In this document: positions 13,926 through 37,335 of the stretch, in pieces
Layout: each line of letters starts with the position of its first letter
Numbering within the stretch: the stretch's first letter is position 1
Assembly (NCBI GenBank): GCA_029821195.1
Contig: JALGTU010000010.1
Coordinates: forward strand, 1 to 38,837
Reading direction: 5' to 3'
DNA length: 38,837 bases
Source: Candidatus Zipacnadia bacterium
Lineage (GTDB): Bacteria; Armatimonadota; Zipacnadia; Zipacnadales; Zipacnadaceae
Position numbers and translations under genes: made by a program
The notes under the pieces: generated by a model
Told to the model about the DNA's origin: nothing
The model's database searches: none
What the model saw: only the letters and a program-made list of their open reading frames with translations

Positions 13926-15101
13926 CTACTCACTCCTCCGTGGCTCCCCGTCCAACTCCAGTGCGATCACCGAGAGGTGCGGGTCGGGCGGTTCCTTGGG
14001 CAGCGCCGGAAAGATGACCCGATCGCCCTCCTGGACGAACTCAAGCTTCTCCCCCGTGGTCAGCAGCCGGGCATTCTGCACCGTATTGCCCAACTCGCTG
14101 AAAGCCCACTGCTGCCCTGGCCACAGCAGCATATGCAGATACAGCGTATTCCCCCGGGCGGTAGCTCCGCCGTTGACGAAAGTTCCGTGGCTGCCATACT
14201 TGCAGCGCTGCGCACCGTAAATCGCCTCGCCATGCCGCGCCAGCCACTTTCCCATCTCGCACAGGATTTCCTGCTGCGGCTCAGGGATGGTGCCGTCGGC
14301 CATTGGCGAGACATTCAGCAGCAGATTGCCGCCCCCGCCTGCGATGTGCACCAGGTCCAGCAGCAGCCGCGTGGGCGGCTTGTAGTACTGCTCGTTGCGA
14401 TAGAAGCCCCAGCGGTGGCCGACGACCAGGCAGCTCTCCCACATCCGGCCTGCCTCGGAAGCCTCGATTTTCTGCTCCGGGGTATCGAAATCGCCGGGCA
14501 GCAGGCCGCGATTGTTAATCAGACAGTCCGGCTGGAGTTCGCGGATCATCTTTGCCAGCTTCTCCGCCCGCCAGCAGGCAGCACAGCCCGGACCGCCGCC
14601 GTCAAACCACATCACGTCAAGCGGCCCGTAGTTGGTGCACAGCTCGCGGACCTGCCCGTGGACGTACTCGATGAACTCGGGCCACTCGTCCGACTCCGGC
14701 CCCGCCTGCCAGCCGGGATGGTGCCAGTCTAGCAGCGAGTAGTACAAGCCCACGCGCATCCCTCCCGCCCGCGCTGCCTCAATGTACTCGGCGATCAGGT
14801 CGCGCCTGGCTGCGGTCTTCGGGGCAGTGAAGTCTGACAAGTCGCTGTCATACAGGCAGTAGCCGTCATGATGCCGCGCGGTCAGCACCATATACCGCAT
14901 CCCCGCCTCCTGCGCCAGGTTCACCCAGTCGCGGGGGTCCCAGTCATCGGGCGCAAACTGGTCGGCGTACCGGCGATACTCCTCGAAGGGGATCTTCTCG
15001 TCGTGCAGCATCCACTCGGCGTGTGCGGGCACCGAGTATATCCCCCAGTGGATAACCATCCCAAACTTCGCTTCGTTGAACCAACTGGCATCCGCTGGCA
15101 T
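13926..15101 (-). CDS. Alpha-L-fucosidase (GH29)
   Basis: Family 29 glycoside hydrolase (391 aa) that releases terminal L-fucose with retention. The barrel begins FGMVIHWGIYS (13-23) and contains LTARHHDGYCLYDS (73-86), with the adjacent histidines that line the fucose pocket. The nucleophile should be Asp167 in MWFDGG. NLLLNVSPMADG (259-270) is the usual final barrel strand. The acid/base cannot be placed with certainty. A C-terminal beta domain (about 300-391) follows. There is no signal peptide, so it is predicted cytoplasmic and acts on imported oligosaccharides. The start has GAGGAG eight bases upstream. Two SGNH hydrolase genes follow in the same direction. The gene is divergent from the oligogalacturonate-lyase-like gene at 15280, so the 178-bp gap may hold shared control sites. 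Confidence 0.93.
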   Translation of the reverse strand: MPADASWFNEAKFGMVIHWGIYSVPAHAEWMLHDEKIPFEEYRRYADQFAPDDWDPRDWVNLAQEAGMRYMVLTARHHDGYCLYDSDLSDFTAPKTAARRDLIAEYIEAARAGGMRVGLYYSLLDWHHPGWQAGPESDEWPEFIEYVHGQVRELCTNYGPLDVMWFDGGGPGCAACWRAEKLAKMIRELQPDCLINNRGLLPGDFDTPEQKIEASEAGRMWESCLVVGHRWGFYRNEQYYKPPTRLLLDLVHIAGGGGNLLLNVSPMADGTIPEPQQEILCEMGKWLARHGEAIYGAQRCKYGSHGTFVNGGATARGNTLYLHMLLWPGQQWAFSELGNTVQNARLLTTGEKLEFVQEGDRVIFPALPKEPPDPHLSVIALELDGEPRRSE

Positions 15102-19237: not shown

Positions 19238-20053
19238 ATGTCTGTCCTGCAGAGCGCCTGGGAGCTAATCAGCGACATAAGGGTACGCGATGTGGTAGAC
19301 ATCGTGCTGGTGGCTACGCTGGTATACTACCTGGCCCGGCTGCTGCGCCGCACCCGGGCGATATCCCTGGTCAACGGTCTGGTGGTTGTGTCTCTTGTCG
19401 TCCTGTTCCTGCTTTCTATGGGCCTGCCGACTCTCAACTGGCTGCTGCGCGGCCTCACCTATGGTGGGGTGCTGGCCCTGGTGGTGATCTTCCAGCCGGA
19501 GCTCCGCCTCGCCCTGGAGCGGCTGGGGCGCGGCGGCCTCTTCAGCGGCGTACTGGGGCGGTTGGGCACACACAGGCAACAGTTTCTAATAAGCCAGGTC
19601 GTAGACGCCGCTTACCGCCTCTCTGAAGAGGGCTATGGAGGGCTTATCGTCCTGGAGCGACGCAGCGGCTTGATGGACATCATCCGCACCGGCAAGATCC
19701 TCAACGCCCAGGCCTCAGTCGAGTTGCTGCTGACGATATTCTATCCGGGCAGTCCACTGCATGATGGCGCAGTGGTCATTCGCGAAGACGAGATTGTCGC
19801 TGCCGCCTGCGCCCTGCCCCATTCGGAGAGTCCCAGCCTGTCAACCAGCGCCGGGATGCGCCACCGCGCTGCCCTGGGGCTGGCCGAACGTACTGATGCC
19901 GTCATTGTAGTGGTCTCCGAAGAGACCGGCGCAGTTTCGCTGGCGGTTAACGGCTCCCTGTCGCCGCGCATTGAACGTCCCCAGCTTACCGAACGGCTCA
20001 TGGAGCTGTTCGAGGCTGAGCAGGAGGCCGGCTTCTTCTTCTGGCGCAAGTAA
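19238..20053 (+). CDS. cdaA: Diadenylate cyclase CdaA (membrane-bound c-di-AMP synthase)
   Basis: Converts two ATP to cyclic di-AMP, the second messenger for potassium and cell-wall homeostasis. The 271-aa protein has the CdaA form: three membrane helices in residues about 18-85, the conserved VVIFQPELRLALERLG (82-97), then the DisA_N domain with DGA at 176-178 and RHR at 208-210 in GMRHRAALG, the ATP-binding and catalytic signatures. The start ATG directly follows the TAG of the heparinase-like gene, with AAAGGAG about 13 bases upstream inside that gene's end. A YbbR partner gene follows after 28 bases, as in many bacteria; glmM, often third, is not present here. Confidence 0.95.
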   Translation: MSVLQSAWELISDIRVRDVVDIVLVATLVYYLARLLRRTRAISLVNGLVVVSLVVLFLLSMGLPTLNWLLRGLTYGGVLALVVIFQPELRLALERLGRGGLFSGVLGRLGTHRQQFLISQVVDAAYRLSEEGYGGLIVLERRSGLMDIIRTGKILNAQASVELLLTIFYPGSPLHDGAVVIREDEIVAAACALPHSESPSLSTSAGMRHRAALGLAERTDAVIVVVSEETGAVSLAVNGSLSPRIERPQLTERLMELFEAEQEAGFFFWRK

Positions 20054-20081
20054 CACCCAGACCCACCCCAGGGCATAACCA

Positions 20082-21218
20082 ATGATGAACGTAGTACGCA
20101 GAATTGCACGTGCCATCACCAACGAATGGCCGCTGAAGATACTCTCCTTGGCCCTGGCCCTGGCCCTGTGGGGATATTTCATCACCGAAAAGAACCCGCT
20201 CACGCAGGAGCAAAGAACCGTGGCGGTGGAAGCCGTTAACACCCCCGCAGGTCTGATAACCACCAGCATCCAGCCCCGCGAGGTACAAGTGACCTTCCAG
20301 GGGCGCCGCCGTGCTGTGGTTGCCGCCGACTTGAACGAAGTGCGCATCATCGCCGACCTGAGCAGCCTCAGTAGTCAGCAGCTCGGTGAGACCCCGCCCA
20401 TTGCCCTGGAAACGCAGGGCCTGCCCGCCGGTGTGGAGGCAATCCTCAGCCCTGGCGTGGCCCGTATCACCCTCGACCAGAAAGACACCATCGAGCGGAC
20501 GGTCACGGTCGAGACTCTGGGCAAGCAAGCCGAGGGCTTCCGCCTGGGCACGCCCCGGGTCAATCCTACCCAGGTGAGCATCCAGGGCGCCAGCAGCGCC
20601 CTGCGCGATGTGGCGCAGGTGGTGGCGGTCGTGGACGTCGCGGGCTTCAACTCCACCGTGGAGAAGAATATCCCGGTCCAACTACGCGATGAACGCAGTG
20701 TGAAAATAGCCGGCCTGCGCACCACGCCGGCTACAGTTAAGGTGATCGTGCCGATCACCAAGGTGGCGACCAAGACCGTGCCAATCACGCCCCGGCTCAG
20801 TGAGCCGCCCGCCGGCTACAAGGTGGTCTCGGTTCAGACCAGTCCCAGTACGGTCACCATCACTGGCGTGGAGAGTACCATCGCGGGAATCGAGTACATC
20901 AGTACAGTGCGGATCAGCATCGAGAACCTGCGCGGCGCGGGCACTTATACCCCCAGTCTAGTCTTCCCCCAGGGCGTCAAGTCAGTGGGCGTGGGTGCGG
21001 CGACGGTGAAAGTTGCCACGGAGCACGTGACTCTGCCCGAACCATCCCCCGAGCCAGAACCTACCGAGGGCGAACCCACCACAAGCCCGGGTTCCTCCGA
21101 TTCCGGCAGTTCCAGCCTAGCACCAGATGAGGAGACCGGCACCGAAGAGGTCCCCGACGAAACCCCGCCAGATGAGAATGCCGAGGACGCCGACAAAGAA
21201 GTGGACGAGGGCGACTAG
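20082..21218 (+). CDS. ybbR: YbbR-domain protein, likely CdaA regulator (CdaR-like)
   Basis: Membrane-anchored extracytoplasmic protein of 378 aa that in other bacteria binds CdaA and tunes c-di-AMP synthesis. The start NEWPLKILSLALALALWGYF (14-33) is the classic YbbR entry: a short amphipathic stretch running into one membrane helix. Residues about 40-325 hold around four YbbR repeats with the recurrent phrases LPAGVEA.LSP, RVNPTQVSIQG, TTPATVKVIVPI and SPSTVTITG. The last 55 residues are an unusual acidic, Pro/Ser-rich tail (Glu, Asp, Thr, Pro) that may be an unstructured spacer. The frame contains two adjacent ATGs at 20082. It ends 17 bases before the convergent HEAT/TPR gene, and no clear terminator lies between them. 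Confidence 0.93.
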   Translation: MMNVVRRIARAITNEWPLKILSLALALALWGYFITEKNPLTQEQRTVAVEAVNTPAGLITTSIQPREVQVTFQGRRRAVVAADLNEVRIIADLSSLSSQQLGETPPIALETQGLPAGVEAILSPGVARITLDQKDTIERTVTVETLGKQAEGFRLGTPRVNPTQVSIQGASSALRDVAQVVAVVDVAGFNSTVEKNIPVQLRDERSVKIAGLRTTPATVKVIVPITKVATKTVPITPRLSEPPAGYKVVSVQTSPSTVTITGVESTIAGIEYISTVRISIENLRGAGTYTPSLVFPQGVKSVGVGAATVKVATEHVTLPEPSPEPEPTEGEPTTSPGSSDSGSSSLAPDEETGTEEVPDETPPDENAEDADKEVDEGD

Positions 21219-21235: not shown

Positions 21236-22339
21236 TTACTGCTCGTTGAGCAGCCGCTGCACCCGCTCGTAATTGAACTTTATGGCCGGAAAATCCGGCG
21301 ATAGCTTGTACATCTCCTGCCACTGTTTGAAGCTGGCCTCAAGCTGCCCGGTATGCTCCAGGCAATGTGCGTACACCCGCCAGCCCGCTCCCTGGGCCCC
21401 TAACTCTACCGACCGGCGCAAGTACGGCAGCGCCAGGTCATACTGCTTCAGGTTGAAGTAGTGCCAGCCCAGGTAGTAGTGACTCAGGGGGTTGTCGGGC
21501 AGCGTGCCGATGCCGCGATGGTAAGTGCCGATCGCCTCGGTGTTATACCCCATGCTCCACTGCAGCCAGGCAATTTCGCTGTACGTCGTTACCAGCCCGG
21601 GGTCCATCAGCAGCACCACCTCCATGCACCGGCAGCACTGGCTGTAATCACCCCAGTGCCACCACCAGTCCGACTCGGCTTCGTACGCGCCTAGTACCGC
21701 TTGCCAGATCACAGCGGCCTGCTCGGCCGTGAGCGGGGCCCGTTCGCTCGCAGGAGGCACAGGCGGCAGGGTCGCCGGCTCCGCCAGCGCCGCTGCGATG
21801 GTGCGCGTGATAAAGTCGGGCTGCGCCGACCGCATCGCTTCCGGCGTCCCCCGAGCAGTCTCAAAGCCCAATCGGCTGAGGCCAAGCACAGCGTAGTAGC
21901 GAATCCATGTCGGCTCGCCTATCAGCGCCGCCTCGGCGATCTTCCGCCCACGCTCATCGCCCAGGCAGGCCAGAGCAATCCCCGCCTGGATGCGCACGTC
22001 GCGGCAGTCATCGCCGGCCGCCGCAAGTAGCGCTTCGACAGCCGACAGGTCCCCAATCTGCCCGAGGACAAAGGCCGCGCGCAGGCGCTGCACGATGTCG
22101 CTGTCGCTGAGCCGGTCAACAAGCACCGGCACCATCTCGCTGTGGCCCCACATAATCGGCAGCGGCGCCCATTCCGGGCGATCTGGGCGCATCGCCATCT
22201 CCTCGAGTTCCAGCGCATGTATGCCCGGCAGCCCAAAATCGCCGGGCGATCCCCCGGCATCGGGGTCAGCCTCCGGTGCAGCAACAGCAAACTGTAACGG
22301 CACAGCAAGCAAACAGACCACAGCAATAATGCGCGACAT
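21236..22339 (-). CDS. Exported HEAT-repeat and TPR protein
   Basis: A 367-aa protein with a signal peptide (MSRIIAVVCLLAVPLQFAVAA, cleavage after about residue 21). Residues about 65-170 form PBS/HEAT-like helical repeats (RLRAAFVLGQIGDLSAVEALL, RIQAGIALACLGDE, IRYYAVLGLSRLG). Residues about 210-365 form TPR-like repeats (AIGTYHRGIGTLPDNPLSHYYLGWHYFNLKQYDLALPYLRRSVELG and neighbours), with a Trp/Cys-rich joint between (ESDWWWHWGDYSQCCRC). Both repeat types bind proteins, so an envelope scaffold is the likely role. It is the last of four genes on this strand, 26 bases after the lipoprotein gene, with GGAGAC/GAGGA in front of its start. Confidence 0.8.
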   Translation of the reverse strand: MSRIIAVVCLLAVPLQFAVAAPEADPDAGGSPGDFGLPGIHALELEEMAMRPDRPEWAPLPIMWGHSEMVPVLVDRLSDSDIVQRLRAAFVLGQIGDLSAVEALLAAAGDDCRDVRIQAGIALACLGDERGRKIAEAALIGEPTWIRYYAVLGLSRLGFETARGTPEAMRSAQPDFITRTIAAALAEPATLPPVPPASERAPLTAEQAAVIWQAVLGAYEAESDWWWHWGDYSQCCRCMEVVLLMDPGLVTTYSEIAWLQWSMGYNTEAIGTYHRGIGTLPDNPLSHYYLGWHYFNLKQYDLALPYLRRSVELGAQGAGWRVYAHCLEHTGQLEASFKQWQEMYKLSPDFPAIKFNYERVQRLLNEQ

Positions 22340-22365
22340 TATTCCGTCCTCACCGTCTCCCCAGA

Positions 22366-23565
22366 CTAATCAACCGTCAGGGTGAAGTTAATGCTCTCTA
22401 GCACGCGGCCTCCGCCGAGAAGTTCGACCTCCCGGCCGATAGTGCGGTCACCGTAAGCAACTTCAATGCGATAAGCCCCCGGGGGCACGAACAGATAATA
22501 GTACCCGTCGGCACCAGTAGTGTCTTCAGCAAGTACCAGGCCACGATTCAGGTCGAACGCAGTCACCACTGCACCCGAGTCATCCGCCGCCCCCAGAAGA
22601 GTGACCCGGCCAGTGATCGTGTACGGTGCGCCGGGCGGCTGCGGGGAGAATTCGTTGAGCAGAATAGTCAGGTCGTTGAGCCCCGGCACCACGTTGATGA
22701 CCGTGTAGTAGTCGTCGTAGCCCTCCGCGCTCGCCGTTACCGCCTGCTCACCCATGGGGACATCCGGCACCGAGAAAGTCCCGCTGGTATCGCTGACGAC
22801 CGGCGGCTGCTCACCAATCTGCACCTCAGCTCCAGCTACCGGCGACTCGGTGCGCATCTCCAACACGTGTCCGCTGACCGTAACCACGGCCTCGCCACTG
22901 AACAGCCGGAAATCCAGGGGGTCGTTATCGCCCGCGGAGTCAGCGGTAACGACATAGTCGGCCGTATCCTCGAAATAGTCCGCCGCCTGGCAGGTCACCG
23001 CGACCGGGCCGGCGGGGATGCCCCCAATAATGTACCAGCCGCCCTGGTCAGTGAAACCATCTACCGCCTCGCCAGGCTGTGCACCCGCCGGCAGGAAGCT
23101 CACCAGCGCGTTGCTGACGGGTTCTGCGGTGTCAACATCGGTCACCGTACCCGACACCGTGCCGGTAACGTCCAGGTCCGCCGGCGCCAGCGATATGCTC
23201 GCCGCTGTATAGCTATACTCACTGAGGGTCAGCATCTGGGAGGCGGTCACGTACCCGGGAGCAGTGACCGTCAGGGGCTGCTGGGGGGGACTCTCGGTAC
23301 CCAGCGGCACGTTCTGGAGTATCACCCAGTTATCCTGCAAGTTCGTCTGGCCGCGGACCCCGCCCACTACCACCTGGGCGAGCACCTCAATGAAATCCTC
23401 GGTGCCCTCGATCAGACACTCCACGACGACCGTCGCGGTCGCGCGCTCCTCAGCAATCTGTGTGCTCACACTACCGCACCCAGTCAACTGCCCGGCTAAC
23501 GCCCCGCACCCGACAAGCAACCCTATGACCAGCAGATTTGACCTGACTGAAGGCTTGATTACCAT
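22366..23565 (-). CDS. Lipoprotein with carboxypeptidase-regulatory-like domains
   Basis: A 399-aa envelope protein. The N-terminus ends in a lipobox-like LTGC (Cys30), indicating lipid anchoring. It then has a string of four beta-sandwich domains of the carboxypeptidase regulatory (CarboxypepD_reg) type, each with the pattern 'G.V.d..t..P...A.V...........T...G.Y.......G...V...A.GY'. Clear copies start near SGTVTDVDTAEPVSNALVSF, SGHVLEMRTESPVAGAEVQI and TGRVTLLGAADDSGAVVTAF; the first (about 45-130) is divergent. The third gene of the envelope operon, it starts 33 bases after the secreted 737-aa protein and 26 bases before the HEAT/TPR gene. The ribosome site is poor, so translation may rely on coupling. 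Likely a structural or binding subunit. Confidence 0.8.
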   Translation of the reverse strand: MVIKPSVRSNLLVIGLLVGCGALAGQLTGCGSVSTQIAEERATATVVVECLIEGTEDFIEVLAQVVVGGVRGQTNLQDNWVILQNVPLGTESPPQQPLTVTAPGYVTASQMLTLSEYSYTAASISLAPADLDVTGTVSGTVTDVDTAEPVSNALVSFLPAGAQPGEAVDGFTDQGGWYIIGGIPAGPVAVTCQAADYFEDTADYVVTADSAGDNDPLDFRLFSGEAVVTVSGHVLEMRTESPVAGAEVQIGEQPPVVSDTSGTFSVPDVPMGEQAVTASAEGYDDYYTVINVVPGLNDLTILLNEFSPQPPGAPYTITGRVTLLGAADDSGAVVTAFDLNRGLVLAEDTTGADGYYYLFVPPGAYRIEVAYGDRTIGREVELLGGGRVLESINFTLTVD

Positions 23566-23598
23566 AAAGCTCTGCCAGAAGACAAGAGGTGACTCGGC

Positions 23599-25812
23599 TT
23601 AGATTGGTGGGAAGATAATGCGGGCGCCACCCGCCACCAGACAGCGCATCCAGTAGCCCGCGAACGGCTCGATTGTCTCAACCAGCACGTAGCCGCCCTG
23701 CTCGCTGTAGCTGTATACCCCCGCCTGCACCCAACCGCGGGTGACGGCCTCGCTGAAACTGACCGGCCCCTCCGTGCCCACCTCTACCTGCAGGTCGGCC
23801 ACCGCCACCGCCTCCAGCCGGGGGCTGCCCACCATATTCCAGCCCAGCTCCACCGGCACCGCATAGCTGCGGTCCTCGTCGGGAAGTATGCCCTGCAGGC
23901 CGACGGTGGCATCACTGAACAAGCGGACCCAGAAAGCACGACCGGGCGCAAACGGCGCAATATCCGGCCAGATCTCGTACCGCCCCTGGGGCACCCGGCC
24001 GGGCTCCCAGCGCGCCATCAGCAAGTCGCCAGCCGCCACCCCCAGGACCTGAGCAGCGTCAGTCTGCTCGGGGGTTATTGGCAGCGAGATCATCTGCAGC
24101 CCGTTCGAGCCGGCATAGAAGGTATGACTGGCGGCTAATTGCCCGCCGCCTTCCAGAAAGATGATGTACGAATCCCAGCCCACATTGACCCGGCGGGTGA
24201 AGGTCTCGCCCCCGGGGTTGGTAACGGTCACTTCCAGTTGCGTCGGCGTCAGCCGTGCGCCACTCACGCAGGCTCCGAATACCGCACGCTGCGCCGGGAT
24301 ACCTGTTCCCTCAAAGCCCCCGGTCACGTCCACAGTGGCGTCGGGGCCGCCACGAATACCCCCGTAGAAATCGTTCTCGCCCGGATCAAAGCCGCGCACC
24401 CCGTACGGATAGGGATACTCCGCGCGCAAGCCGTTGAGGTCCATCTGGACTGTTACCTGCTGAGCACCACCGATGTTGTAGAAGGTGGGGATCAGGTAGC
24501 CCTCGCCCGCGCTGACCCCGCTCGTGGCCACGTCAATGACGTAGCCCTCCTCCGCGTATAAGCTCAGCGTCCGGCTGTAGTTCCAGTAGATGCAGCGGGC
24601 CTGCCCGCCGCGCGGCGATTCGTTCCCGCTGGCATCGGTCACGTAGTGCTCGACAATAAGCGCCACCGCCCGCTCCAGGGGAATATTCCAGGTGTAAAGC
24701 TTGCTGCCTGTACGAATGCTGGTATCCAGCACATAGTTGCGCTCGTACCAGTCGTAGAAGTTCATACCTTCAACCGTGCCGATGGCCGCGGTAGCAGTAT
24801 CCTTCAGCGCCGGTACGTCGCCCTGCATCCCCTCGTAGAAGCTCTGATAGTAGAGCTGGTTGAAATTGGCGAAAAACTGGGGATCTTCGATGTAGCACTT
24901 ATACCACGCCGCCCGGGCCATCGCAATACGCCACACCAGCATCCCGCTGAACCCCGAGGCCGGGTAGAAGGTGCTTGAACCCAACGCGGGCTGGTTTTCC
25001 GCCTCGTAGACCGACAGGCAGTAGAACGGCCCCGGATCAACCGGATCATAGCCCGGCGCCACCCCGGCACTGACCTGGACCGCCGTCGCCGCCGCCCCAA
25101 CGAATCCCTGCTCCCACGCGTCGTAGAAAAACGCAACATCGTCGTGGAAGGCACTGAGCACCAGCATCATCAGGATGAAGGTGTCCTCCACATAATTGCC
25201 GCTCAGGGGAGCCAGATGAATCTCGTTGGCGGTGGCATCGTATATTCCGCCTTGAATCTCCTCGAGAGTATCGTCGCGGATTACCGTGACCGTCAGGTCA
25301 AACGCGGGCGGCCCGTAGATCAGCCGGGCCTTGGGCATCGCGCCCTGCAGATAACCGCGCAGCGCTGCTTCCTCGGCCTCGGTGAAGCCCTGGAACTGGA
25401 ACTCAATATCGTTATCCGGGTCACCCAGTCCGCCGCCGCCCTGCATCGCGCGCGCCAGATCAGGCAACTGCACCTGTCCTCCCCGGATGTGGTAAGCGGT
25501 GCGCGGAAAGGACACTCGGGCGTCCGGGGCCTTAAGACCCAGAGCCTGCATAAGCTGCATGGTATATTCCGCCCGCCGCAGCAAAGCCGGACTGTGCTGG
25601 ACCGCCGCCGCCTGGCTGACTACCGCCTGCGGGGCCATCGCGCCCCGCGCCGGCTCGGGTACCAGAATCGCCCCCACCGGCCCGTCAGCACGCGTGGCGA
25701 AAGGCGTGTTATCAATATTCCCAAACGGTGCTCCGCCGACCGGAGCACCAGCCACGGCACCGGCCATGACCACCAGGCCCAACATAGCCAACCGAACTGT
25801 CCTATTACTCAT
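23599..25812 (-). CDS. Secreted protein of unknown function with two C-terminal 'GWNMV' modules
   Basis: A 737-aa protein I do not recognise. It has a signal peptide (residues 1-22) and a low-complexity stretch to about 75. A globular N-terminal part (about 80-420) includes YDATANEIHLAPLSGNY and FHDDVAFFYDAWEQGF (222-237), whose layout recalls a gluzincin metallopeptidase but without a HExxH motif. A beta-rich middle (about 420-560) follows, then two related modules of about 80 residues. The first opens NGLQMISLPI and ends PGRAFWVRL; the second opens GWNMVGSP and ends FAGYWMRCL. Both resemble surface-attachment modules. The ATG at 25812 is chosen over the GTG at 25827 because GAGGGG precedes it and the signal peptide starts there. 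Only eight bases separate it from the stop of the barrel gene. Confidence 0.7.
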   Translation of the reverse strand: MSNRTVRLAMLGLVVMAGAVAGAPVGGAPFGNIDNTPFATRADGPVGAILVPEPARGAMAPQAVVSQAAAVQHSPALLRRAEYTMQLMQALGLKAPDARVSFPRTAYHIRGGQVQLPDLARAMQGGGGLGDPDNDIEFQFQGFTEAEEAALRGYLQGAMPKARLIYGPPAFDLTVTVIRDDTLEEIQGGIYDATANEIHLAPLSGNYVEDTFILMMLVLSAFHDDVAFFYDAWEQGFVGAAATAVQVSAGVAPGYDPVDPGPFYCLSVYEAENQPALGSSTFYPASGFSGMLVWRIAMARAAWYKCYIEDPQFFANFNQLYYQSFYEGMQGDVPALKDTATAAIGTVEGMNFYDWYERNYVLDTSIRTGSKLYTWNIPLERAVALIVEHYVTDASGNESPRGGQARCIYWNYSRTLSLYAEEGYVIDVATSGVSAGEGYLIPTFYNIGGAQQVTVQMDLNGLRAEYPYPYGVRGFDPGENDFYGGIRGGPDATVDVTGGFEGTGIPAQRAVFGACVSGARLTPTQLEVTVTNPGGETFTRRVNVGWDSYIIFLEGGGQLAASHTFYAGSNGLQMISLPITPEQTDAAQVLGVAAGDLLMARWEPGRVPQGRYEIWPDIAPFAPGRAFWVRLFSDATVGLQGILPDEDRSYAVPVELGWNMVGSPRLEAVAVADLQVEVGTEGPVSFSEAVTRGWVQAGVYSYSEQGGYVLVETIEPFAGYWMRCLVAGGARIIFPPI

Positions 25813-25820
25813 TTTGCCCC

Positions 25821-28800
25821 TCACCACTGCGGGAACGTATTGTAGGAGCCGCCGCCCTCGTAGCCACCACCCCAGCCATGGCCGCTCCCCTGGTAGTAGC
25901 CGCCCTGCCGGCGCCGGTCAGCGCCGCCGTAGGTTGAGAACTCATCGCCAAGACCCGGCTGGTAGCCGCCAAACGTGCCGCGCCGGGGGCCACTATCCAT
26001 GGTCGAGGTGGGCCCCCGGAACCGACTGGCCCCCATGCCGCTGGCGAAATTGCTCTGCAGGGACAGCATAAAGGTGTGCGCGTTGTAGTCCTGGCCCTGC
26101 GTGGCCACGCCGGTATACCCCAGGAACGGCGAGCTCGACTGGCCGGCCCGATGCCCGATGAACCGGTAGCCAAAGGTCAGCCTGTTGTTCCGCCCGACCT
26201 CATAGTTAAGGCCCAGGTCAACGATCTTCTTGCTGAACGCCGAATAATCACTGTCAAATTCCGAGGTGCTGGCCCGCAGCATCAGGCTCGACCGGTTGCC
26301 CAGTCGGTAGCTGAACTGCCCAGACAAGTCCCGCAGGCCGGTATCAGTCTGATAATACCGCTCGCGGCCGCCAATGAGAATGTAAGAAGGGCTGCTGCCC
26401 GTCATCCGATTGATGGACACGTTGAGGTCCCACGGTTTGTCCTGGGGCCGATAGTTCAGGCCCATAATCAGGGAGTCGTTGCTCACCGAGCCCCGCCCCG
26501 CCTGGAGGAACTGAAGATCATCCTGGCTGAAATTCGTCGTGAGCGTTATCTCGCTGGTGGCCTGCCAGGTAAGCGCCAGGCTCCGGTACTTCTGGTCGCT
26601 GTCACTCAGGTAGCCGCTCCCCCCGCCGCTGAGGTACTTGCGCTGCCCCGAGGTCAGCATCAGCGAAAGCTTTCTACTAGGTTGGTAACTGGCGGTGAAG
26701 CTGGTACTGGTATCCTTGTAGTATGGTTCGTCGTCGTCATCCTGACAGGGCCATACCTCCCGCGCAGGCCAACTCGCCGGTACAATTGCACTAAGCGCAG
26801 CGGGGACCGCGCCCGCAATCGGACCGGGCAGCCCGCCGCCCCCACCATGACCGCTGCCCGGAAAACCGCCGTAGAAGCCGCTGCTCACCCGGCCGAGTGA
26901 AGTCGAACCGCTGCGCTCCAGGGAGAGGTTCAACTTGTCCGAGGGTGACCAACTCCCATGTAGACGGGTGTAGTCCGACTCCGAGCGGCCTCCCTCGCCC
27001 CCTACGGCCACCGACCGATCCTTGCCCAGGTCCGCCCTCAGGCTCAGACGGGACGAAGGAGCATAGTCAAGCGAAACCCGCCGCTGTCGCGTTTCGCTGC
27101 CGAATGACCCCGTAGAGCTTCCCGTGCTGCCCGCGTTGCGCTGATCCGTGGTGGTGAGCGAGAGCTGGGTCCGCAGCTTGTTGCTAAAAGCATGAGACAG
27201 GTCCACCGAAGTGCGCGTGTAATCGCTGTTGCTCTGCGCACCCCCGCTGTTGGCCATGGTCTGCCGCCGCAGCGTCGTCACCGGCCAACCCGGAAAGCGC
27301 AACTCTACATCCCAATCCCGGCGTTTGACCGAGACATTCTGAACCGGTGTGGTATCCTGCGTGGGCCGCAGCTCGGCGGCCTGAAACGGCTCCAGGCCGG
27401 TGTCAAACCCCACCCCACCCCCGTAGCCACTGTAGCCGAACGACAGCCCCGCGGTACTCTCCGAATCCTCCAGGGCACTGCGCACGCGAATATGCCGGCT
27501 CGGCTGCCAACCCAGATCCAGCTTCAGGCCTCGGTCATTGCGGCGAAAGCCCGTGGAGTCAATGTAACTGAACCGCGGCTCAACGTCGCGATAAGTGGCC
27601 AGCAGATCATACCGGGGCCGACGGTAGCTGAGAATCGTCTGCAGAGCGCTGCCCGAGCTGCCCTGGCTCTCGCTCTGAGCAAAATCAGTGCGCAGCGACA
27701 GGTCGTCGCTCACCTGGTAACCAAGGTCAAAGCCCCGCACTTCCACATCACTGGACAGTGCCGTCTCCCCGAGCTCGTAGTAGTACTGAATCCGCACCAG
27801 CGCCGTCGGTGGAACCGCCAGCCGGAAGATAATTCGGCCAATCTGCCGATAGGCGTCATAGTCCACCCCCTCCTGCATCGGGACATTGTCCATGAGAACC
27901 TTCAGCGCCTCGGCGATGGTCTGCGCACTGCCCTGGTAGATCACCTGGGCTCCGTCGGCGATGATGGGCCGGAAATTCGTATCGAACGGCCCGGTGGTGC
28001 CCGAGCCGTAATAAACATCCTCCTGGTAGGATACCGTATCCCCCTGACCGGCCTCGGGCCGGTCCTGCTCGAGCCAGGTGACTCCCACCTGGACCTTGCC
28101 CCTCTTCAGCGGCGCTTGCACGCGCAGACCGGTCAAAGTCCCGGCATTACCGAAGTAGCCCGAGGACTGGTAGCTCACCGAGATCGTCGAGGTGCTGGGG
28201 ATGGCTCTGCTAGGGCCCTCTACCGGCGAGAACCACAACTCGCCACTCTGGTAGTCCAGCCGGTAGTCCACGCCTCGTAGCTGGAACTCCTCGTCCACCT
28301 TCACTGATTCGCTGCCATCAATGATCGGCGTATACCTGAGGAAATAGGGCCCGGGCGTGTCATTTCCCGACAAAGTCTCGTTACGGGTGTAACCCTTCTG
28401 CTCGGAGCTAAAGGCGCGCAGCACACCATCGCTGGGCAGCTTCTGGTCAAGCTGCCAGCCCTTGAGGCTCTTGGCGAAACTGGCAAACTCGTTGTTGCGC
28501 AGGCTGATGTTCAGATCGCCGAAGTACAGCCCCGTATCGTGGCCGACATAGCCGACCAGCCAGCGCGAATAGCGGGCCCCGTAGCCGGAAAACGAAAGAT
28601 CAGTCCGAAAGCCGAACTCCTTCCAGATCGGCCCCTCCACGCTCAGACTGGTGCGCCGCTGCAGCGACCCGGTGTCCCAGCGCTGACTCTCGAAGACAGA
28701 CGACGCCCCCTCGATGCTGTGCTCCTGCAAGGTGAGCGTGTTATTACCCGATACCTGAACGCCCTGGAATAGCCCCCACTTCTCGAAGAGGTTTTCAACG

Positions 28801-28889
28801 CTCTTTAGCGGATTGGCCCCGGCCCCTGTTGCTACCAGCAGCACAACTGCCGCCACCAGCACAGCCGCCGGCCGGATGACGCCACGCAC
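25821..28889 (-). CDS. SprA-like outer-membrane beta-barrel protein with Gly-rich tail
   Basis: A 1022-aa exported protein (signal peptide 1-25) whose sequence from about 385 on is an alternating pattern of short amphipathic strands and Ser/Asn/Gly turns, as in a large outer-membrane barrel. Residues about 180-240 and 300-371 are two modules of the kind seen in SprA: 'IIDGSESV ... G.DY.LDY.SGEL.F ... ISVSYQ' and 'IIADGAQVIYQG ... GVDYDAYRQIGRIIF ... VRIQYYY'. An external-loop-like insert at about 670-720 is rich in Gly and Pro and carries a DDDDE run. The last strand ends in SLQSNF at residue 948, after which comes a 74-residue Gly/Tyr/Arg-rich tail. The start is GTG at 28889 with GAGGAAG about 15 bases upstream. 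It is the first gene of the four-gene envelope operon. Confidence 0.8.
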   Translation of the reverse strand: MRGVIRPAAVLVAAVVLLVATGAGANPLKSVENLFEKWGLFQGVQVSGNNTLTLQEHSIEGASSVFESQRWDTGSLQRRTSLSVEGPIWKEFGFRTDLSFSGYGARYSRWLVGYVGHDTGLYFGDLNISLRNNEFASFAKSLKGWQLDQKLPSDGVLRAFSSEQKGYTRNETLSGNDTPGPYFLRYTPIIDGSESVKVDEEFQLRGVDYRLDYQSGELWFSPVEGPSRAIPSTSTISVSYQSSGYFGNAGTLTGLRVQAPLKRGKVQVGVTWLEQDRPEAGQGDTVSYQEDVYYGSGTTGPFDTNFRPIIADGAQVIYQGSAQTIAEALKVLMDNVPMQEGVDYDAYRQIGRIIFRLAVPPTALVRIQYYYELGETALSSDVEVRGFDLGYQVSDDLSLRTDFAQSESQGSSGSALQTILSYRRPRYDLLATYRDVEPRFSYIDSTGFRRNDRGLKLDLGWQPSRHIRVRSALEDSESTAGLSFGYSGYGGGVGFDTGLEPFQAAELRPTQDTTPVQNVSVKRRDWDVELRFPGWPVTTLRRQTMANSGGAQSNSDYTRTSVDLSHAFSNKLRTQLSLTTTDQRNAGSTGSSTGSFGSETRQRRVSLDYAPSSRLSLRADLGKDRSVAVGGEGGRSESDYTRLHGSWSPSDKLNLSLERSGSTSLGRVSSGFYGGFPGSGHGGGGGLPGPIAGAVPAALSAIVPASWPAREVWPCQDDDDEPYYKDTSTSFTASYQPSRKLSLMLTSGQRKYLSGGGSGYLSDSDQKYRSLALTWQATSEITLTTNFSQDDLQFLQAGRGSVSNDSLIMGLNYRPQDKPWDLNVSINRMTGSSPSYILIGGRERYYQTDTGLRDLSGQFSYRLGNRSSLMLRASTSEFDSDYSAFSKKIVDLGLNYEVGRNNRLTFGYRFIGHRAGQSSSPFLGYTGVATQGQDYNAHTFMLSLQSNFASGMGASRFRGPTSTMDSGPRRGTFGGYQPGLGDEFSTYGGADRRRQGGYYQGSGHGWGGGYEGGGSYNTFPQW

Positions 28890-29003: not shown

Positions 29004-30020
29004 CTACTCGGGGAAACCCTCCCGGCGCAGCCGCGCGCCGACCTCACGCAGTACCGGCTCATCCTCGGGGTCAAGCGAGCCGTCGGGCAACGGACCGGTA
29101 TTGATGATGAGATTGCAGCCCGCTTGCCGCGCAGCACGCAGCGTCGCCCAGACCTCCTCAGCAGTCTTGTGCTGACCGGCGGTCTCCGCATTATACCCCC
29201 AGGAGCCCGGAGCCATCGTATTGCAGATCTCGCCCGGTCGGCCCGCCGTGTCAACGGCCTCGTGCTCGGGCGCCAGGAAGTCCTCCGTGCCCAGCAGCCC
29301 CTGCTTGTACGAGACCAGCACCTGGGGCTGGAGGCCGTGGATGTAATCATAAAGCTCCTGGCACTTGAACTGCGCGTAGTCGCCAGACGCCGGCGTGGAG
29401 ATGCCATCCAGCCAGATCGCGGCCACTGGACCGTAGTTGGTAAGTAGCTCGGTGATCTGTGCGGTCATGAAGTCGAGGTAGATCTGCAGATCATGCTCCT
29501 CACCGTACGCATATGAGGGTTCGGGCGGATCGTACTCGGGGCGGGCGCTGCGGGGCCACTGGTCGTTGTTGGGGGCGTGGGGATGGCGCCAGTCGCGGCC
29601 ATGCGAGTAATACAGGCACAGACCCAGGCCCCGCTTCGCGCACGCTTCGGCCAGCTCGCCCACCAGGTCCCGTCCTGCCGGCGAGTTGACGCTGTTGAAG
29701 TCACTCTCGGCGGTATCGAACAGGCAGAACGAGTCGTGGTGGCGGGTAGTGATGTTGATATACTTCATCTCGCAGTCCACTGCGAAGTCAGCGATATGCT
29801 CGGCATCGAAGCTCTCAGCGGTGAAGCGGTCCTTGAGCTTTTCGTACTCGGCGACGTAGATCTTCTCGCGGAGCTGGACCCACTCGTGGCGGCCGAGCAG
29901 CGAGTATAGCCCGTAGTGCAAGAAGAGCCCGTATTTGGCCTCGCGAAACCACTGCAAGGCAGCTTCGCGCGGGCTTTCTCGATAAAGATCAACGTATCCG
30001 TCCAGATAAGATGGGAGCAT
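29004..30020 (-). CDS. GH29-like alpha-L-fucosidase, catalytic domain only
   Basis: A 338-aa protein with the GH29 barrel and almost nothing after it. The barrel opens AKYGLFLHYGLYS (28-40). ITTRHHDSFCLFDTAESDF (90-108) is the histidine-containing pocket segment. The nucleophile should be Asp205 in IWLDG, and INTGPLPDG near the C-terminus is the final strand. It is distant from the GH29 at 13926 and lacks its C-terminal beta domain, so it belongs to a different subgroup and its specificity may differ. There is no signal peptide. The ATG at 30020 is preferred because AGGA lies ten bases upstream; an in-frame GTG at 30029 is the alternative. About 250 AT-richer bases with a strong hairpin separate it from the gene before it. 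The 114 bases after its stop, up to the barrel gene, hold no supported gene. Confidence 0.87.
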   Translation of the reverse strand: MLPSYLDGYVDLYRESPREAALQWFREAKYGLFLHYGLYSLLGRHEWVQLREKIYVAEYEKLKDRFTAESFDAEHIADFAVDCEMKYINITTRHHDSFCLFDTAESDFNSVNSPAGRDLVGELAEACAKRGLGLCLYYSHGRDWRHPHAPNNDQWPRSARPEYDPPEPSYAYGEEHDLQIYLDFMTAQITELLTNYGPVAAIWLDGISTPASGDYAQFKCQELYDYIHGLQPQVLVSYKQGLLGTEDFLAPEHEAVDTAGRPGEICNTMAPGSWGYNAETAGQHKTAEEVWATLRAARQAGCNLIINTGPLPDGSLDPEDEPVLREVGARLRREGFPE

Positions 30021-30190
30021 TATCGTCACATCCTAACCCGTATTATTTATAGGGACAAATGCAATAAGCGTTACATACACCGGCCCCTCACCCTGCACAG
30101 GGATTAGCGCCAATGCACAGTTTCTACGAATAACGACATGCTGTATTTGTCGCCTTATTGCTCACTGCTAGAAGTTTTTGCCGGAAAAGT

Positions 30191-32603: not shown

Positions 32604-34868
32604 TCACTCCACGGCCACTTCCGTAGCCAGGCGGCGGGAATTGGGGTCAACCAGCCTTTGCGCAGTTACCTCAAAGCTACCCTCGAGTCGGATATCCGCC
32701 GACGAGCTTCCCACCATCACCTTAAACTCACCCGGCTCTACCACCATCCGCATATCCCGGTCGTAGAAGGCCAGCAGGTCCATTGGCAAGGTGAAGGTTA
32801 CTGTCTTCTTCTCGCCAGGCTCAAGGCCGACGCGGGCGAAGCCTTTTAGTTCCCTGTTCGGGCGGGTGAGTGAGGCGACGACGTCACGCAGATAGAGTTG
32901 CACCACTTCGTCGCCGCTGCGCTTGCCAATATTCGCCACGGTGCAGCTAATGCTTACCTCAGCCTCTTCGCCGACCTGCTGCGGAGCGATCCGCAGATTG
33001 CTGTACTTGAAATCGGTGTAGCTCAGCCCGTGCCCGAACGGCAGCAGCGGGTAGGCGGTGTTGAAGATATAGGGCCGGAAAGCAAGCGGCCGGCGGTTGT
33101 AGGGGGCGGGGATCTGGCCAGAATTGACCAGGATGGATACAGACAGCTTGCCGCCCGGATTGTAGTCCCCGAACAACACGTCCGCCACGGCATTGCCGCC
33201 CTCTTCGCCGGGCATCCACGCCTCGACAATGGCCGGCACGTTCTCAAACATCCACGGACTGCTCAGGGGCCGACCGTTGACCAGAACCACCACCAGCGGA
33301 GTGCCGGTCTCGTACAGCGCTTTAAGCAGCTCCTCCTGGGCGCCGGGCAGCGTAATCTCGGTCCGGTCGAGGTTCTCGCCGGTGGTGCCGTCTACGTGCA
33401 TGCCCGACTCATCCCCCACCACCGCCACCACCACATCCGCGTCCTGCGCGGCCTTGATTGCCTCGGCAAAGCCCTCAGTCGAGTCACTCATCGCCTCGCA
33501 GCCCTGGGCAGAGCGAACCTCGGTCTGGGCCGATACCTTGGCCCTTATACCCTCCAGGATGGTGATGATGTCTACACCATCGGGGCTGTCCGCCACGTGT
33601 ACCGGATAGCTGTAATCCCCCATAAGGTTGGTGGTGCTATCCGCATTCGGCCCGACCACGGCGATAGACTTGACCGCCGAGGAAAGCGGCAGAAGATCCT
33701 TTTCATTCTTCAGCAGCACAATCGAGCACCGCGCCACCTCCCGGGACAACGCACGATGCTGAGGCATATCAAAGACCGTCGCCGCGCTGGCTTCGTCAAC
33801 GAAAGGCTCGTCAAACAGGCCCAACGCAAGCTTGAGCCGCAGGTGGCGACGCACAGAGCGGTCTACCAGCGACTCGTCAATCTCGCCGGCGCGGACCGCA
33901 TTGATCAGCGGCTCGGCATAGTAGTCCCAGTCAGGCAGCTCGACGTCTAGCCCGGCCTCCAGTGCCTGCTTGGCGGCCTCGGCTTTGGTCCCGGCGATGT
34001 AGTGCTCGGTCTGGAGCATGGTGATCGTGCCGTAGTCGGCTACGACCACCCCGTCAAAGCCCCACTGGTTACGCAGGACCTCGGTAAGCAGTTCCGGGGA
34101 GGCGCTGCACGGGATGCCGTCAATCTCGTGGTAGGCGCTCATAACCGAGCCGGCCCCGCCCTCGGTTATCGCCACCTGGTAGGGAAACAGGAATACCTCG
34201 CGCAGCTCGCGGGACGGAATGCGGGCCGGGGCCAGGTTGCGCCCGCCCTCGGAGAAGCTGTTCCCGACGTAATGCTTGAGGCACGATAGGATCCCCTCAC
34301 GCAGATTATCCCCCTGGAGGCCCTGGACATAGGCTGTGGTCATCCGGGAGATCAGGTAGGGGTCCTCGCCCATTGTCTCCTCAGTCCGCCCCCAGCGGGG
34401 GTCCCAGCCCAAATCCAGCACCGGCGACAGACAATAATTCGTGCCCAGGGCCCGCGCCTGCTGCCGGATTACGTCGGTCATCCGTCTAATAAGCTGCGGG
34501 TCCCAGGTCGAGCCAAGCCCGATAGCCTGGGGGAAGACGGTGGCACCCATGGCCATCAGGCCGCTGAGGCACTCCTCGTGGACGATGGCCGGAATACCCA
34601 GGCGTGTCTCCGCGCGCAGGAAACGCTGGATTTCGTTGGCAAATCGGGCCGCTTCAGTGGGCGGGATCTCCAGCCAGCCGGCGATTCGCGCGACCTGGCC
34701 GATGCCGTACTTCAGACGCTCCTTCATCTTCGCGCGCGACAACTCGCCGTTGTCGCCGAGCAGGTCCTTGACCGTAACCGCACCAATCTGGGCCGCCTTC
34801 TCCTCCAACGTCATCTCACGAAGCAACTCTTCCAGCCGGCTTTCTTCTTCAGGGGTCAGTGTAATCAC
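32604..34868 (-). CDS. Beta-glucosidase/xylosidase-type GH3 enzyme, copy A
   Basis: A 754-aa family 3 glycoside hydrolase with the full set of domains: (beta/alpha)8-like domain (about 10-330), alpha/beta sandwich (about 350-580) and C-terminal fibronectin-III-like domain (about 640-740, ending RDVVASLTRPNRELKGFARV). The nucleophile should be Asp278 in VVADYG. LKHYVGNSFSEGGRN (198-211) is the conserved KH loop, and GEDPYL (167-172) is another hallmark. GH3 removes single beta-linked glucose, xylose or related sugars from non-reducing ends. No signal peptide, so cytoplasmic. The start is the GTG at 34868, which sits eight bases after GGGAGG; the frame stays open to 35030, but the extension is not family-like. 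Copy B lies immediately upstream. Confidence 0.92.
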   Translation of the reverse strand: MITLTPEEESRLEELLREMTLEEKAAQIGAVTVKDLLGDNGELSRAKMKERLKYGIGQVARIAGWLEIPPTEAARFANEIQRFLRAETRLGIPAIVHEECLSGLMAMGATVFPQAIGLGSTWDPQLIRRMTDVIRQQARALGTNYCLSPVLDLGWDPRWGRTEETMGEDPYLISRMTTAYVQGLQGDNLREGILSCLKHYVGNSFSEGGRNLAPARIPSRELREVFLFPYQVAITEGGAGSVMSAYHEIDGIPCSASPELLTEVLRNQWGFDGVVVADYGTITMLQTEHYIAGTKAEAAKQALEAGLDVELPDWDYYAEPLINAVRAGEIDESLVDRSVRRHLRLKLALGLFDEPFVDEASAATVFDMPQHRALSREVARCSIVLLKNEKDLLPLSSAVKSIAVVGPNADSTTNLMGDYSYPVHVADSPDGVDIITILEGIRAKVSAQTEVRSAQGCEAMSDSTEGFAEAIKAAQDADVVVAVVGDESGMHVDGTTGENLDRTEITLPGAQEELLKALYETGTPLVVVLVNGRPLSSPWMFENVPAIVEAWMPGEEGGNAVADVLFGDYNPGGKLSVSILVNSGQIPAPYNRRPLAFRPYIFNTAYPLLPFGHGLSYTDFKYSNLRIAPQQVGEEAEVSISCTVANIGKRSGDEVVQLYLRDVVASLTRPNRELKGFARVGLEPGEKKTVTFTLPMDLLAFYDRDMRMVVEPGEFKVMVGSSSADIRLEGSFEVTAQRLVDPNSRRLATEVAVE

Positions 34869-35052: not shown

Positions 35053-37335
35053 TCACTCCACAGCTACTTCTGTACCAAAGCGGCGCGAATTCGGGTCCAC
35101 TAGCTTCTGCTCCGTCACTTCGAAGCTGCCCTCGAGGCGGATGTCCTCCGACGAGCTACCCACCATCACCGCAAACTCGCCCGCCTCGACCACCAGCCGC
35201 ATATCCCGGTCGTAGAAAGCCAGCAGGCCCATTGGCAAGGTGAAGGTTACTGTCTTCTTCTCGCCGGGCTCGAGGGTGATGCGCGCAAAGCCCTTCAATT
35301 CCTTGATTGGGCGGACAACCGAAGCGACGGCGTCGTGCAGGTAGAGCTGCACCACCTCGTCGCCGGCTCGCCCGCCTGTGTTCTCCACCGTGCAGCTAAT
35401 AGCTACCTCCGTCTGCTCGCCAACCTGCTGTGGAGTAATCTGCAGACCACTGTACTCGAACTCAGTGTAGCTCAGGCCGTGTCCGAACGGCAGGGCCGGG
35501 TAGGCAGGATGATAGACATAGGTCCGCAGCGAGAAGGGCCGCCGGTTATAGGGCATCGGCGCTTGGCCGGCGCTGGCCAGGATTGAAACGGGCAGCTTCC
35601 CGCCCGGATTGTAGTCGCCGAAGAGCACGTCGGCCACGGCGTTGCCTGCCTCTTCGCCCGGCAGCCACGCCTCGACAATGGCCGACACATTCTCGAACAT
35701 CCACGGGCTGTACAGTGGCCGACCATTGACCAGAACCACCACCAGCGGAGTGCCGGTCTCATACAGCACTTTAAGCAGTTCCTCCTGGACACCGGGCAGC
35801 GTAATCTCGGTCCGGTCGCGGTTCTCGGAGGTGGTCAGGCCCGACGACCCTCCCACCACCGCCACTACTACATCCGCCGCGCGCGCGAGGGCCACTGCCT
35901 CCGCAAAGCCCTCTGTCGAGTCACTCATCTCCATCGGCCAGCGCGGAACACGCAGCGCTGGTGGACCTACCGCGCAGCCCTGGGCGTAGCTAACCTCAGT
36001 CTGCGGGGAAGTCTTCCCCCGTATGCCCTCCAAGATGGTCACAATGCGAATCCCCGCCGACCCCGCCCTATCCCTATAGGAATAGTACCCCAGTACGTTC
36101 CGAGTTTCGTGGGCATTTGGCCCGATCACCGCGAGAGATTTGATATCACGGGGAAGTGGGAGTAGGCCGTCGCTGTTCTTCAACAGGACGATGGAGCGGC
36201 GGGCCAGTTCCCCGGCGAATTCCCGGTGCTGCGGCATATCGAAGACCTTCGCAGCGCTGGCTTCGTCCGCAAAGGGGTCATCAAACAGGCCCAGCGCGAA
36301 CTTCGCACGCAGGTGCCGCCGTACCGCCCGGTCCACGTGAGCCTCCGGGATCCTCCCGTCGCGTACCGCCTCGAGGAGGGGCTCACGGTAATAATCCCAA
36401 CAGTTCGGCTCGACGTCTACCCCGGCCTTCAGCGCCTGCTCCGCAGCCTCGGTCTTGCTTGCGGCGGTGCAATGCACAGTGTGCAACTGGTCAATGGCAC
36501 CGTAGTCTCCCACGACCACCCCGGTAAACCCCCACTCGTCCCGCAGGATCTTGGTCAAGAGCTCCTCGGACGCACTGCACGGAATCCCGTCAATGTCGTG
36601 CATACCGCTCATAACCGCGCCGGCCTGGCCCTCCTTGATAGCCACTTCGAAGGGGAACAGGAAGATTTCGCGAAGCTCGTGAGGCCCAACGTGCACCGAC
36701 GCCGGATGGCGCCCACCCTCAGAGAAGCCGCCTCCCGCGAAGTGCTTGGGCGCGGCGATGATGCCTGTCTGCAAATCACTCCCCCGGAGCCCCTGGACAA
36801 AAGCTGCGGCCATCCGCGAGGCCAGGTAGGGATCTTCGCCCAGTGTCTCTTCGATCCGCCCCCAGCGCGGATCCCAGGCCACGTCTAGCACCGGCGACAG
36901 ACATTGCCGCACGCCCACGGCCTGGCCCTGCCGCCGAATGATGTCGGTCATCCGCCTCGCCATCTCGGGGTCCCAGGTGGAGGCCAGCCCGATAGGCTGG
37001 GGGAAGATCGTGGCTCCCAGCATCATCAGGCCCGCGATACATTCGTCGTGCACTATCGCAGGCACACCCAGCCGTGTCTCTTCGAGCAGGAAGTGCTGGA
37101 TTTCGTTGACCAGCCGGGCTCTCTTAGCGGGGGCAATCTCCTTCTGACCAGTGATTCGCGCTATCTGCCCGATGCCGTACTTCAGTTCCCGCTGCATCCT
37201 ATCTCGCGACAGCTCATCGTCATCATCCAGCAACTGCCGTCCTCCGACCCCGCCCATCTGGGCCGCCTTCTCCTCCAGGGTCATTTCAGCCACAAGCTCT
37301 TCCAACCGACTCTCTTGTTCCGAGGTGAGTTTCAT
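35053..37335 (-). CDS. Beta-glucosidase/xylosidase-type GH3 enzyme, copy B
   Basis: A 760-aa GH3 enzyme closely related to the gene that follows it, with the same three domains. The nucleophile should be Asp277 in VVGDYG. The KH loop is PKHFAGGGFSEGGRH (196-210), and GEDPYL is present. Relative to copy A it has an insertion (VGPPALRVPRWPM) in the sandwich domain and lacks the MHVDGTTGENL stretch, replaced by a shorter SGLTTSENR; this loop lies near the sugar-binding cleft, so substrate preference may differ. The chosen start is the ATG at 37335, preceded by GGGAGGTATT at 11 bases, the same leader string as in copy A. There is no signal peptide. It is the first gene of a unit with copy A and the secreted GH-A-like enzyme. 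Confidence 0.92.
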   Translation of the reverse strand: MKLTSEQESRLEELVAEMTLEEKAAQMGGVGGRQLLDDDDELSRDRMQRELKYGIGQIARITGQKEIAPAKRARLVNEIQHFLLEETRLGVPAIVHDECIAGLMMLGATIFPQPIGLASTWDPEMARRMTDIIRRQGQAVGVRQCLSPVLDVAWDPRWGRIEETLGEDPYLASRMAAAFVQGLRGSDLQTGIIAAPKHFAGGGFSEGGRHPASVHVGPHELREIFLFPFEVAIKEGQAGAVMSGMHDIDGIPCSASEELLTKILRDEWGFTGVVVGDYGAIDQLHTVHCTAASKTEAAEQALKAGVDVEPNCWDYYREPLLEAVRDGRIPEAHVDRAVRRHLRAKFALGLFDDPFADEASAAKVFDMPQHREFAGELARRSIVLLKNSDGLLPLPRDIKSLAVIGPNAHETRNVLGYYSYRDRAGSAGIRIVTILEGIRGKTSPQTEVSYAQGCAVGPPALRVPRWPMEMSDSTEGFAEAVALARAADVVVAVVGGSSGLTTSENRDRTEITLPGVQEELLKVLYETGTPLVVVLVNGRPLYSPWMFENVSAIVEAWLPGEEAGNAVADVLFGDYNPGGKLPVSILASAGQAPMPYNRRPFSLRTYVYHPAYPALPFGHGLSYTEFEYSGLQITPQQVGEQTEVAISCTVENTGGRAGDEVVQLYLHDAVASVVRPIKELKGFARITLEPGEKKTVTFTLPMGLLAFYDRDMRLVVEAGEFAVMVGSSSEDIRLEGSFEVTEQKLVDPNSRRFGTEVAVE

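Follow-up and report, generated by a model that had tools for sequence, protein, structure and literature searches.

A putative outer-membrane barrel with SprA-type modules in a conserved Armatimonadota operon: a possible surface-export system

What kind of envelope machinery is encoded by an Armatimonadota operon whose first product resembles, over a short stretch, the SprA protein of type 9 secretion? The window analyzed here, i.e., the whole stretch of 38.8 kb, is contig 77 of a 3.0-Mb draft genome of an Armatimonadota host. A preliminary description had placed in it four tightly packed minus-strand genes, each with an export signal on its product, and the open reading frames and the intergenic gaps of 8, 33 and 26 bases between them are confirmed. 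These genes encode an outer-membrane barrel protein (25821..28889), a secreted protein (23599..25812), a lipoprotein (22366..23565) and an exported HEAT/TPR protein (21236..22339). When their N-termini were read by eye, Sec-type signals were found on the barrel (ATGAGA|NPL), the secreted protein and the HEAT/TPR protein, while the lipoprotein carries a lipobox (LTGC at Cys30), which bears out the claim of an export signal on every product. An alternative GTG start of the secreted protein at 25827 would yield a protein of 742 aa and make its gene overlap with that of the barrel. Scans for promoters and terminators gave results close to the shuffled background, and a single-sequence search of the PDB returned weak, unrelated matches only. 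Elsewhere in the window there are two alpha-L-fucosidase-like genes (13926-15101 and 29004-30029, both on the minus strand) and an apparent tandem pair of related genes (32604-34868 and 35053-37335) whose products have similar N-termini and are perhaps glycoside hydrolases; together they hint at a cluster for carbohydrate degradation immediately upstream of the operon.

The barrel protein consists of 1022 aa, with a signal peptide, two SprA-type modules, a strand-rich C-terminal region and a Gly-rich tail that ends in QW. Its sole informative match in Pfam and NCBIfam is SprA, and no curated family fits it. The NCBIfam SprA model (TIGR04189) matches about 85 residues of it (residues 188-275) with an E-value of 1.8e-4; its score of 18.8 bits is far short of the 200-bit cut-off. 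The two modules are found at residues 175-250 (28140..28367, minus strand) and residues 283-378 (27756..28043, minus strand). Aligned profile to profile with hhalign, module 1 and module 2 are homologous with a probability of 99.4% (E = 3e-21), while 18 control windows from the same protein reached at most 2%. The SprA model also matches 23 of 33 barrels across the phylum, at best with an E-value of 1.9e-21 and 75 bits in three stretches, and the best stretches in the orthologs correspond to model positions ~590-690. Among 61 genomes, this barrel accounts for most of the matches to the SprA model, as a rule with a single match in each genome, alongside a few module-bearing paralogs, and none of the 61 genomes contains a protein above the 200-bit cut-off. 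The Pfam SprA_N model (PF14349) matched neither the window barrel, nor the 33 family members, nor anything in the window's own genome, in a genome search that was silent in the control genomes too. A canonical SprA was rejected on the score given above and on length, as 1022 aa compare with a model of 2319 positions. Judged by these profile comparisons, the window barrel is not SprA, but its SprA-type modules are real. The two SprA-type modules of the preliminary description are thereby confirmed.

Modules of this kind have weak matches to phage tail proteins, too (TIGR02217, seen in orthologs, and DUF2460), and are therefore mobile beta-modules that by themselves are no proof of a translocon. 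Weak EpsL-type matches occur in seven barrels. Downstream of the modules, AF2 predicts regular strands of 9-16 residues at low confidence, and residues 400-950 (26040..27692, minus strand) are predicted to form a strand-rich barrel region, of which the last strand is aromatic (NAHTFMLSLQSNF). The pLDDT values of about 30 obtained for both the barrel and the secreted protein are attributable to the small number of close sequences that were admissible (only 4-5). Three features underlie the assignment as a beta-barrel, namely the pattern of secondary structure, the aromatic residues at the C-terminus and the kinship of the modules with SprA, and we infer the fold and the function of the protein from its sequence.

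The secreted protein, 737 aa from its ATG and encoded on the minus strand, has no Pfam or NCBIfam match and belongs to no known family, as the preliminary description had it. Most of its orthologs are ~1000 aa long, and 17 of 28 possess a C-terminal FlgD-Ig domain (hereafter CTD), whose profile hits in the PDB include FlgD structures (8e-9) and PorU, at its C-terminus (0.0018). The protein of the window's genus stops before the CTD, which was lost there. The window protein ends instead in a domain at residues ~565-741 (742-aa numbering; 23605..24135, minus strand) that recurs in further large secreted proteins of Armatimonadota, and in several full-length ones this type of domain sits ~170-190 aa before a C-terminal FlgD-Ig domain. 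A helix motif, [LH]xAF[HR]D...yDxWExG, is found at residues ~210-245 (window 25080-25200), and its W-E-x-G is invariant in 28 orthologs. The stretch LVLHAFHDD...YDAWEEGF recalls HExxH...E, but the protein was rejected as an active metallopeptidase, given that the catalytic residues are absent from the orthologs read and that there is no profile hit.

The lipoprotein (399 aa, minus strand; lipobox L-T-G-C at 23476..23487) contains carboxypeptidase-regulatory-like domains, with three stretches matching CarboxypepD_reg (PF13620, E = 1.1e-27), and it weakly matches an anammox S-layer protein. The fourth product (367 aa, minus strand) matches HEAT_2 (E = 1e-10) and TPR_2 (E = 2e-9). The domain content first proposed for both proteins is thus borne out. 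Adjacency of the HEAT/TPR gene to the other three is confined to the window's family, with 6 loci; elsewhere its relatives are found on other contigs or farther off, and the protein is therefore no core member. Genes for a c-di-AMP cyclase (cdaA) and a YbbR protein (window 19238-21218, plus strand) converge on the 3' end of the operon, and within the window's family most loci keep this cdaA-ybbR pair there, bordering the HEAT/TPR gene.

Searched with a profile of the barrel family, 261 of the 291 Armatimonadota genomes, and 137 of the 156 genera, give a match, although some of these matches are weak and possibly to the modules only. Of 61 genomes searched for relatives, 57 contain the barrel, 59 have a match to the secreted protein and 52 one to the lipoprotein, with some matches of the latter two reflecting shared domains only. 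The neighborhoods of 36 barrel loci from 19 families were examined with a simple codon-usage gene caller, so that some gene boundaries are approximate. The barrel, the secreted protein and the lipoprotein are kept together in 30 of these loci (13 families), in which the gene for the secreted protein lies at most two co-directional genes downstream of that for the barrel, often overlapping or separated by tens of bases. Downstream, 16 loci from 9 families continue with co-directional LptC/LptA-like genes; nine loci from 8 families have csaB or a DUF5693 gene directly upstream, and in the more distant classes a PEGA/CarboxypepD_reg lipoprotein is encoded between the barrel and the secreted protein. 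The widespread operon therefore reads csaB/DUF5693 - barrel - lipoprotein - secreted protein - lipoprotein(s) - LptC - LptA. The wide occurrence of the barrel, the secreted protein and the lipoprotein, and their conserved order, are more than chance co-location would give. The window contains a reduced version of the wider operon with a local addition, and we infer that the order of the wider operon is ancestral. The expectation that the four families would stay together is consequently upheld for the barrel, the secreted protein and the lipoprotein but not for the HEAT/TPR protein, which joins them in the window's family only; an envelope system whose barrel has SprA-type modules is supported, and in other families the operon is wider than the four genes and includes csaB/DUF5693, a second lipoprotein, LptC and LptA. 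Secretion or surface assembly, the joint role first suggested, is a putative function. Our literature search found no paper that treats either this operon or an Armatimonadota system resembling type 9; the paper on Zipacnadia, a class of the phylum, names type II, flagellar type III and LPS genes only.

The FlgD-Ig domain is by no means limited to the operon protein. FlgD-Ig matches are found in 60 of 61 genomes; the window genome has 12 of them and other genomes as many as 48, the majority within long open frames, while the same model finds matches in only 5 of 14 control genomes. The domain is at the extreme C-terminus in 19 of the 20 top loci, the exception (in genome G047) being near the N-terminus, and in 35 of 40 further sampled loci, where the stop codon follows 13-18 aa past the domain. 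Thirty-one of those 35 tails have a terminal Arg, compared with 9% of the other genes in the same loci (p = 4e-28, a value that overstates independence because the tails are homologous). Compared with NCBIfam, ten tails match FlgD models best, but there are also matches to PorZ, to PorU (at best 2e-7) and to TIGR04183, the model of T9SS type A sorting domains (at best 5e-5, one tail being just over its cut-off). An FlgD-Ig-type CTD ending in Arg, found on numerous large exported proteins, is a candidate sorting signal, whatever the answer to the question of the barrel. Proteins with Arg-ending FlgD-Ig tails are encoded at G000:C148 (L139, and L204 8525-12061 on the minus strand), L132-L151 and L164-L203. 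In two genomes, genes for tail proteins (a PD40/CarboxypepD_reg protein and a protein of ~940 aa) enclose a gene for a C11 clostripain-family peptidase (L115:2250-16760 and L117:1041-15540), and the cluster of one of them, L115, also includes a subtilase with a tail. PorU is a clan CD sortase (C25), and C11 belongs to the same clan; this kinship and the place of the gene inside a cluster of CTD genes make the C11 peptidase a candidate processing enzyme. The cluster, conserved between the two genomes, may thus encode cargo together with an enzyme of its own to process it.

Based on these results, we propose, with a probability of roughly 0.4, that the operon encodes an Armatimonadota-wide system for surface export or display that works like the type 9 system without being one. 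Cargo proteins would cross the inner membrane via Sec, after which their C-terminal beta-sandwich would be recognized in the periplasm, the tail targeting them to the outer membrane. The barrel may serve as the channel or the assembly platform for the cargo, and the lipoproteins as lids, carriers or scaffolds. PorU itself carries a CTD, and the secreted protein of the operon could be either an accessory in a PorU-like position, without the peptidase, or the first cargo. The HEAT/TPR protein would be a lineage-specific periplasmic add-on, perhaps a scaffold comparable to the TPR-rich SprE, a binding partner of SprA within type 9 translocons (PMC10994853). This reading is favored by the SprA modules, the CTD of the operon partner, the linkage in 30 of 36 loci and the genome-wide tails taken together. 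It is weakened by the loss of the CTD from the operon protein in the window's own genus, by the FlgD-Ig domain being a widespread fold whose closest models are flagellar FlgD, by the barrel being under half the length of the SprA model and by the LptC/LptA and csaB genes in the operon, which point to work on a glycolipid or polysaccharide. The link between the tail and the barrel that the proposal presumes is a weak one, its sole statistical indication coming from three genomes treated as barrel-less, in which FlgD-Ig counts are 3, 4 and 0 compared with a median of 10 (p = 0.004, n = 3, uncorrected for phylogeny); one of the three, G047, gave a weak partial barrel match (2e-9) in a deeper profile search. 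Neither a motor gene nor a PorV-like gene was seen in the loci, and the GldM model matched in 0 of 61 genomes in a search in which no positive control rang either.

The same neighborhoods can be read in other ways. With LptC/LptA-like genes (16 loci, 9 families) and csaB/DUF5693 (9 loci, 8 families) in the operon, a route for an outer-membrane glycolipid or polysaccharide is a serious alternative, if on the whole an improbable one: CsaB/DUF5693 would modify a (pyruvylated) polymer, the LptC/LptA-like pair would bridge the periplasm, and the barrel and the lipoproteins would place the product at, or export it to, the surface. The weak EpsL-type matches of seven barrels agree with it, as do the two to three LptF/G genes that most genomes contain and the further LptA-like genes near them, which come in addition to the operon pair. 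The presence of LptC/LptA in the same operon also led us to consider the barrel as the missing LptD of the diderm Bacillati, as LptD was not found in diderm Firmicutes by earlier workers (PMC5007114). That candidate was dropped: the barrel has no jelly roll, and a separate LptD-like protein of about 780-820 aa is encoded beside LptF/G in the loci read. At E <= 0.1, neither the N-terminal LptA-like jelly roll (PF03968) nor the C-terminal barrel domain of LptD (PF04453) was detected in the 33 barrel members, the latter model being insensitive here, since it is over its cut-off in no relative and, among the controls, only in E. coli and Caulobacter. The lack of an LptA-docking jelly roll and the LptD-like protein already at hand beside LptF/G also speak against the glycolipid route, which leaves the SprA-type modules and the CTD of the operon protein unexplained, and in the window's family the LptC/LptA pair is gone from the operon. 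There, an LptC/LptA-like pair is found on another contig (G000:C180 in the window genome, L152:6430-7928; also L153:7668-9124), beside an unrelated 1342-aa gene. The divergent LptD-like proteins (L154:2669-5122, L155:3-2354 and L156:7598-9970) are below the Pfam LptD model and may be useful for the question of LptD in diderm Bacillati.

A static assembly of barrel, lipoproteins and secreted protein at the surface, or from periplasm to surface, that exports nothing, such as a porin, a tether or the base of a surface layer, would suit the presence of the barrel in 261 of 291 genomes, as expected of a core envelope structure. Surface scaffolds often contain CarboxypepD_reg and PEGA domains, and the match of the lipoprotein to an anammox S-layer protein, weak as it is, points the same way. 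Nevertheless, no SLH or OmpA-type peptidoglycan-binding domain was found in the proteins scanned, and neither the SprA modules nor the phylum-wide set of CTDs would be explained; we regard this explanation as about as likely as the glycolipid or polysaccharide route. The SprA-type modules and the type-9-like CTDs would also fit a genuine type 9 system, acquired from or held in common with Bacteroidota; the sub-threshold SprA scores in 61 of 61 genomes, the shortness of the barrel relative to the 2319-position model, the silent GldM model (lacking its positive control) and the absence of any other T9SS family from the loci render it highly improbable. Even less credit is due to the idea that the genes for four exported proteins, unrelated to one another, are neighbors by chance in a compact genome, to which only the variable position of the HEAT/TPR gene lends itself: the barrel-secreted protein-lipoprotein order, kept over many families, refutes it for three of the four genes. 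Among these readings, export or display at the surface by a type-9-like machine is the one that we prefer.

A further proposal concerns origins. Armatimonadota may possess their own CTD-dependent secretion system, with a translocon of ~1000 residues that shares only the modules with SprA, an FlgD-like sorting domain with a free arginine as its last residue and, possibly, a clan CD peptidase of the C11 family for processing at the surface; it would have arisen in parallel to or before the type 9 system. We consider this unlikely at present. To our knowledge, type 9 secretion has been described as confined to Bacteroidota; with a phylum-wide operon that has SprA modules, and with many proteins that bear type-9-like tails, the origin of the type 9 machine would become testable from a deep-branching diderm phylum, and a largely uncultured phylum would gain a candidate surface-export system. 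Whatever its function, an unannotated barrel in ~90% of Armatimonadota genomes is a core envelope component worth naming.

Compared with known systems, the operon shares features with several and coincides with none. In other bacteria, csaB pyruvylates the ligand of SLH domains, and csaB is next door to the barrel in several families. Like OmpM, the tether of diderm Bacillati (PMC10628300), the barrel is a widely kept outer-membrane protein of a phylum in that group, but no SLH match was found in the window barrel or its 33-member family. LptC- and LptA-like genes in the operon (9 families) recall the LptC-LptA-LptD bridge, from which the barrel differs in having no LptD jelly roll and in the other LptD-like protein beside LptF/G. 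Like the CTD of PorU and the T9SS sorting domain of type A (TIGR04183), the tails are Ig-like beta-sandwiches at the extreme C-terminus with a basic last residue, and they match both weakly but repeatedly (PorU, to 2e-7; TIGR04183, to 5e-5), although they are closer to FlgD_ig (PF13860) than to Por_Secre_tail, they end in Arg, and the window's own operon protein is without a CTD. Relative to SprA/Sov (TIGR04189), the barrel has under half the length, scores 18.8 bits where the cut-off is 200, has no SprA_N match, is accompanied by no motor genes in the loci and belongs to Armatimonadota instead of Bacteroidota; what the two have in common is a module of ~85 residues, at SprA positions ~600-690 and present twice in the window barrel, an exported and barrel-like protein to carry it and, in most lineages, an operon partner with a type-9-like CTD.
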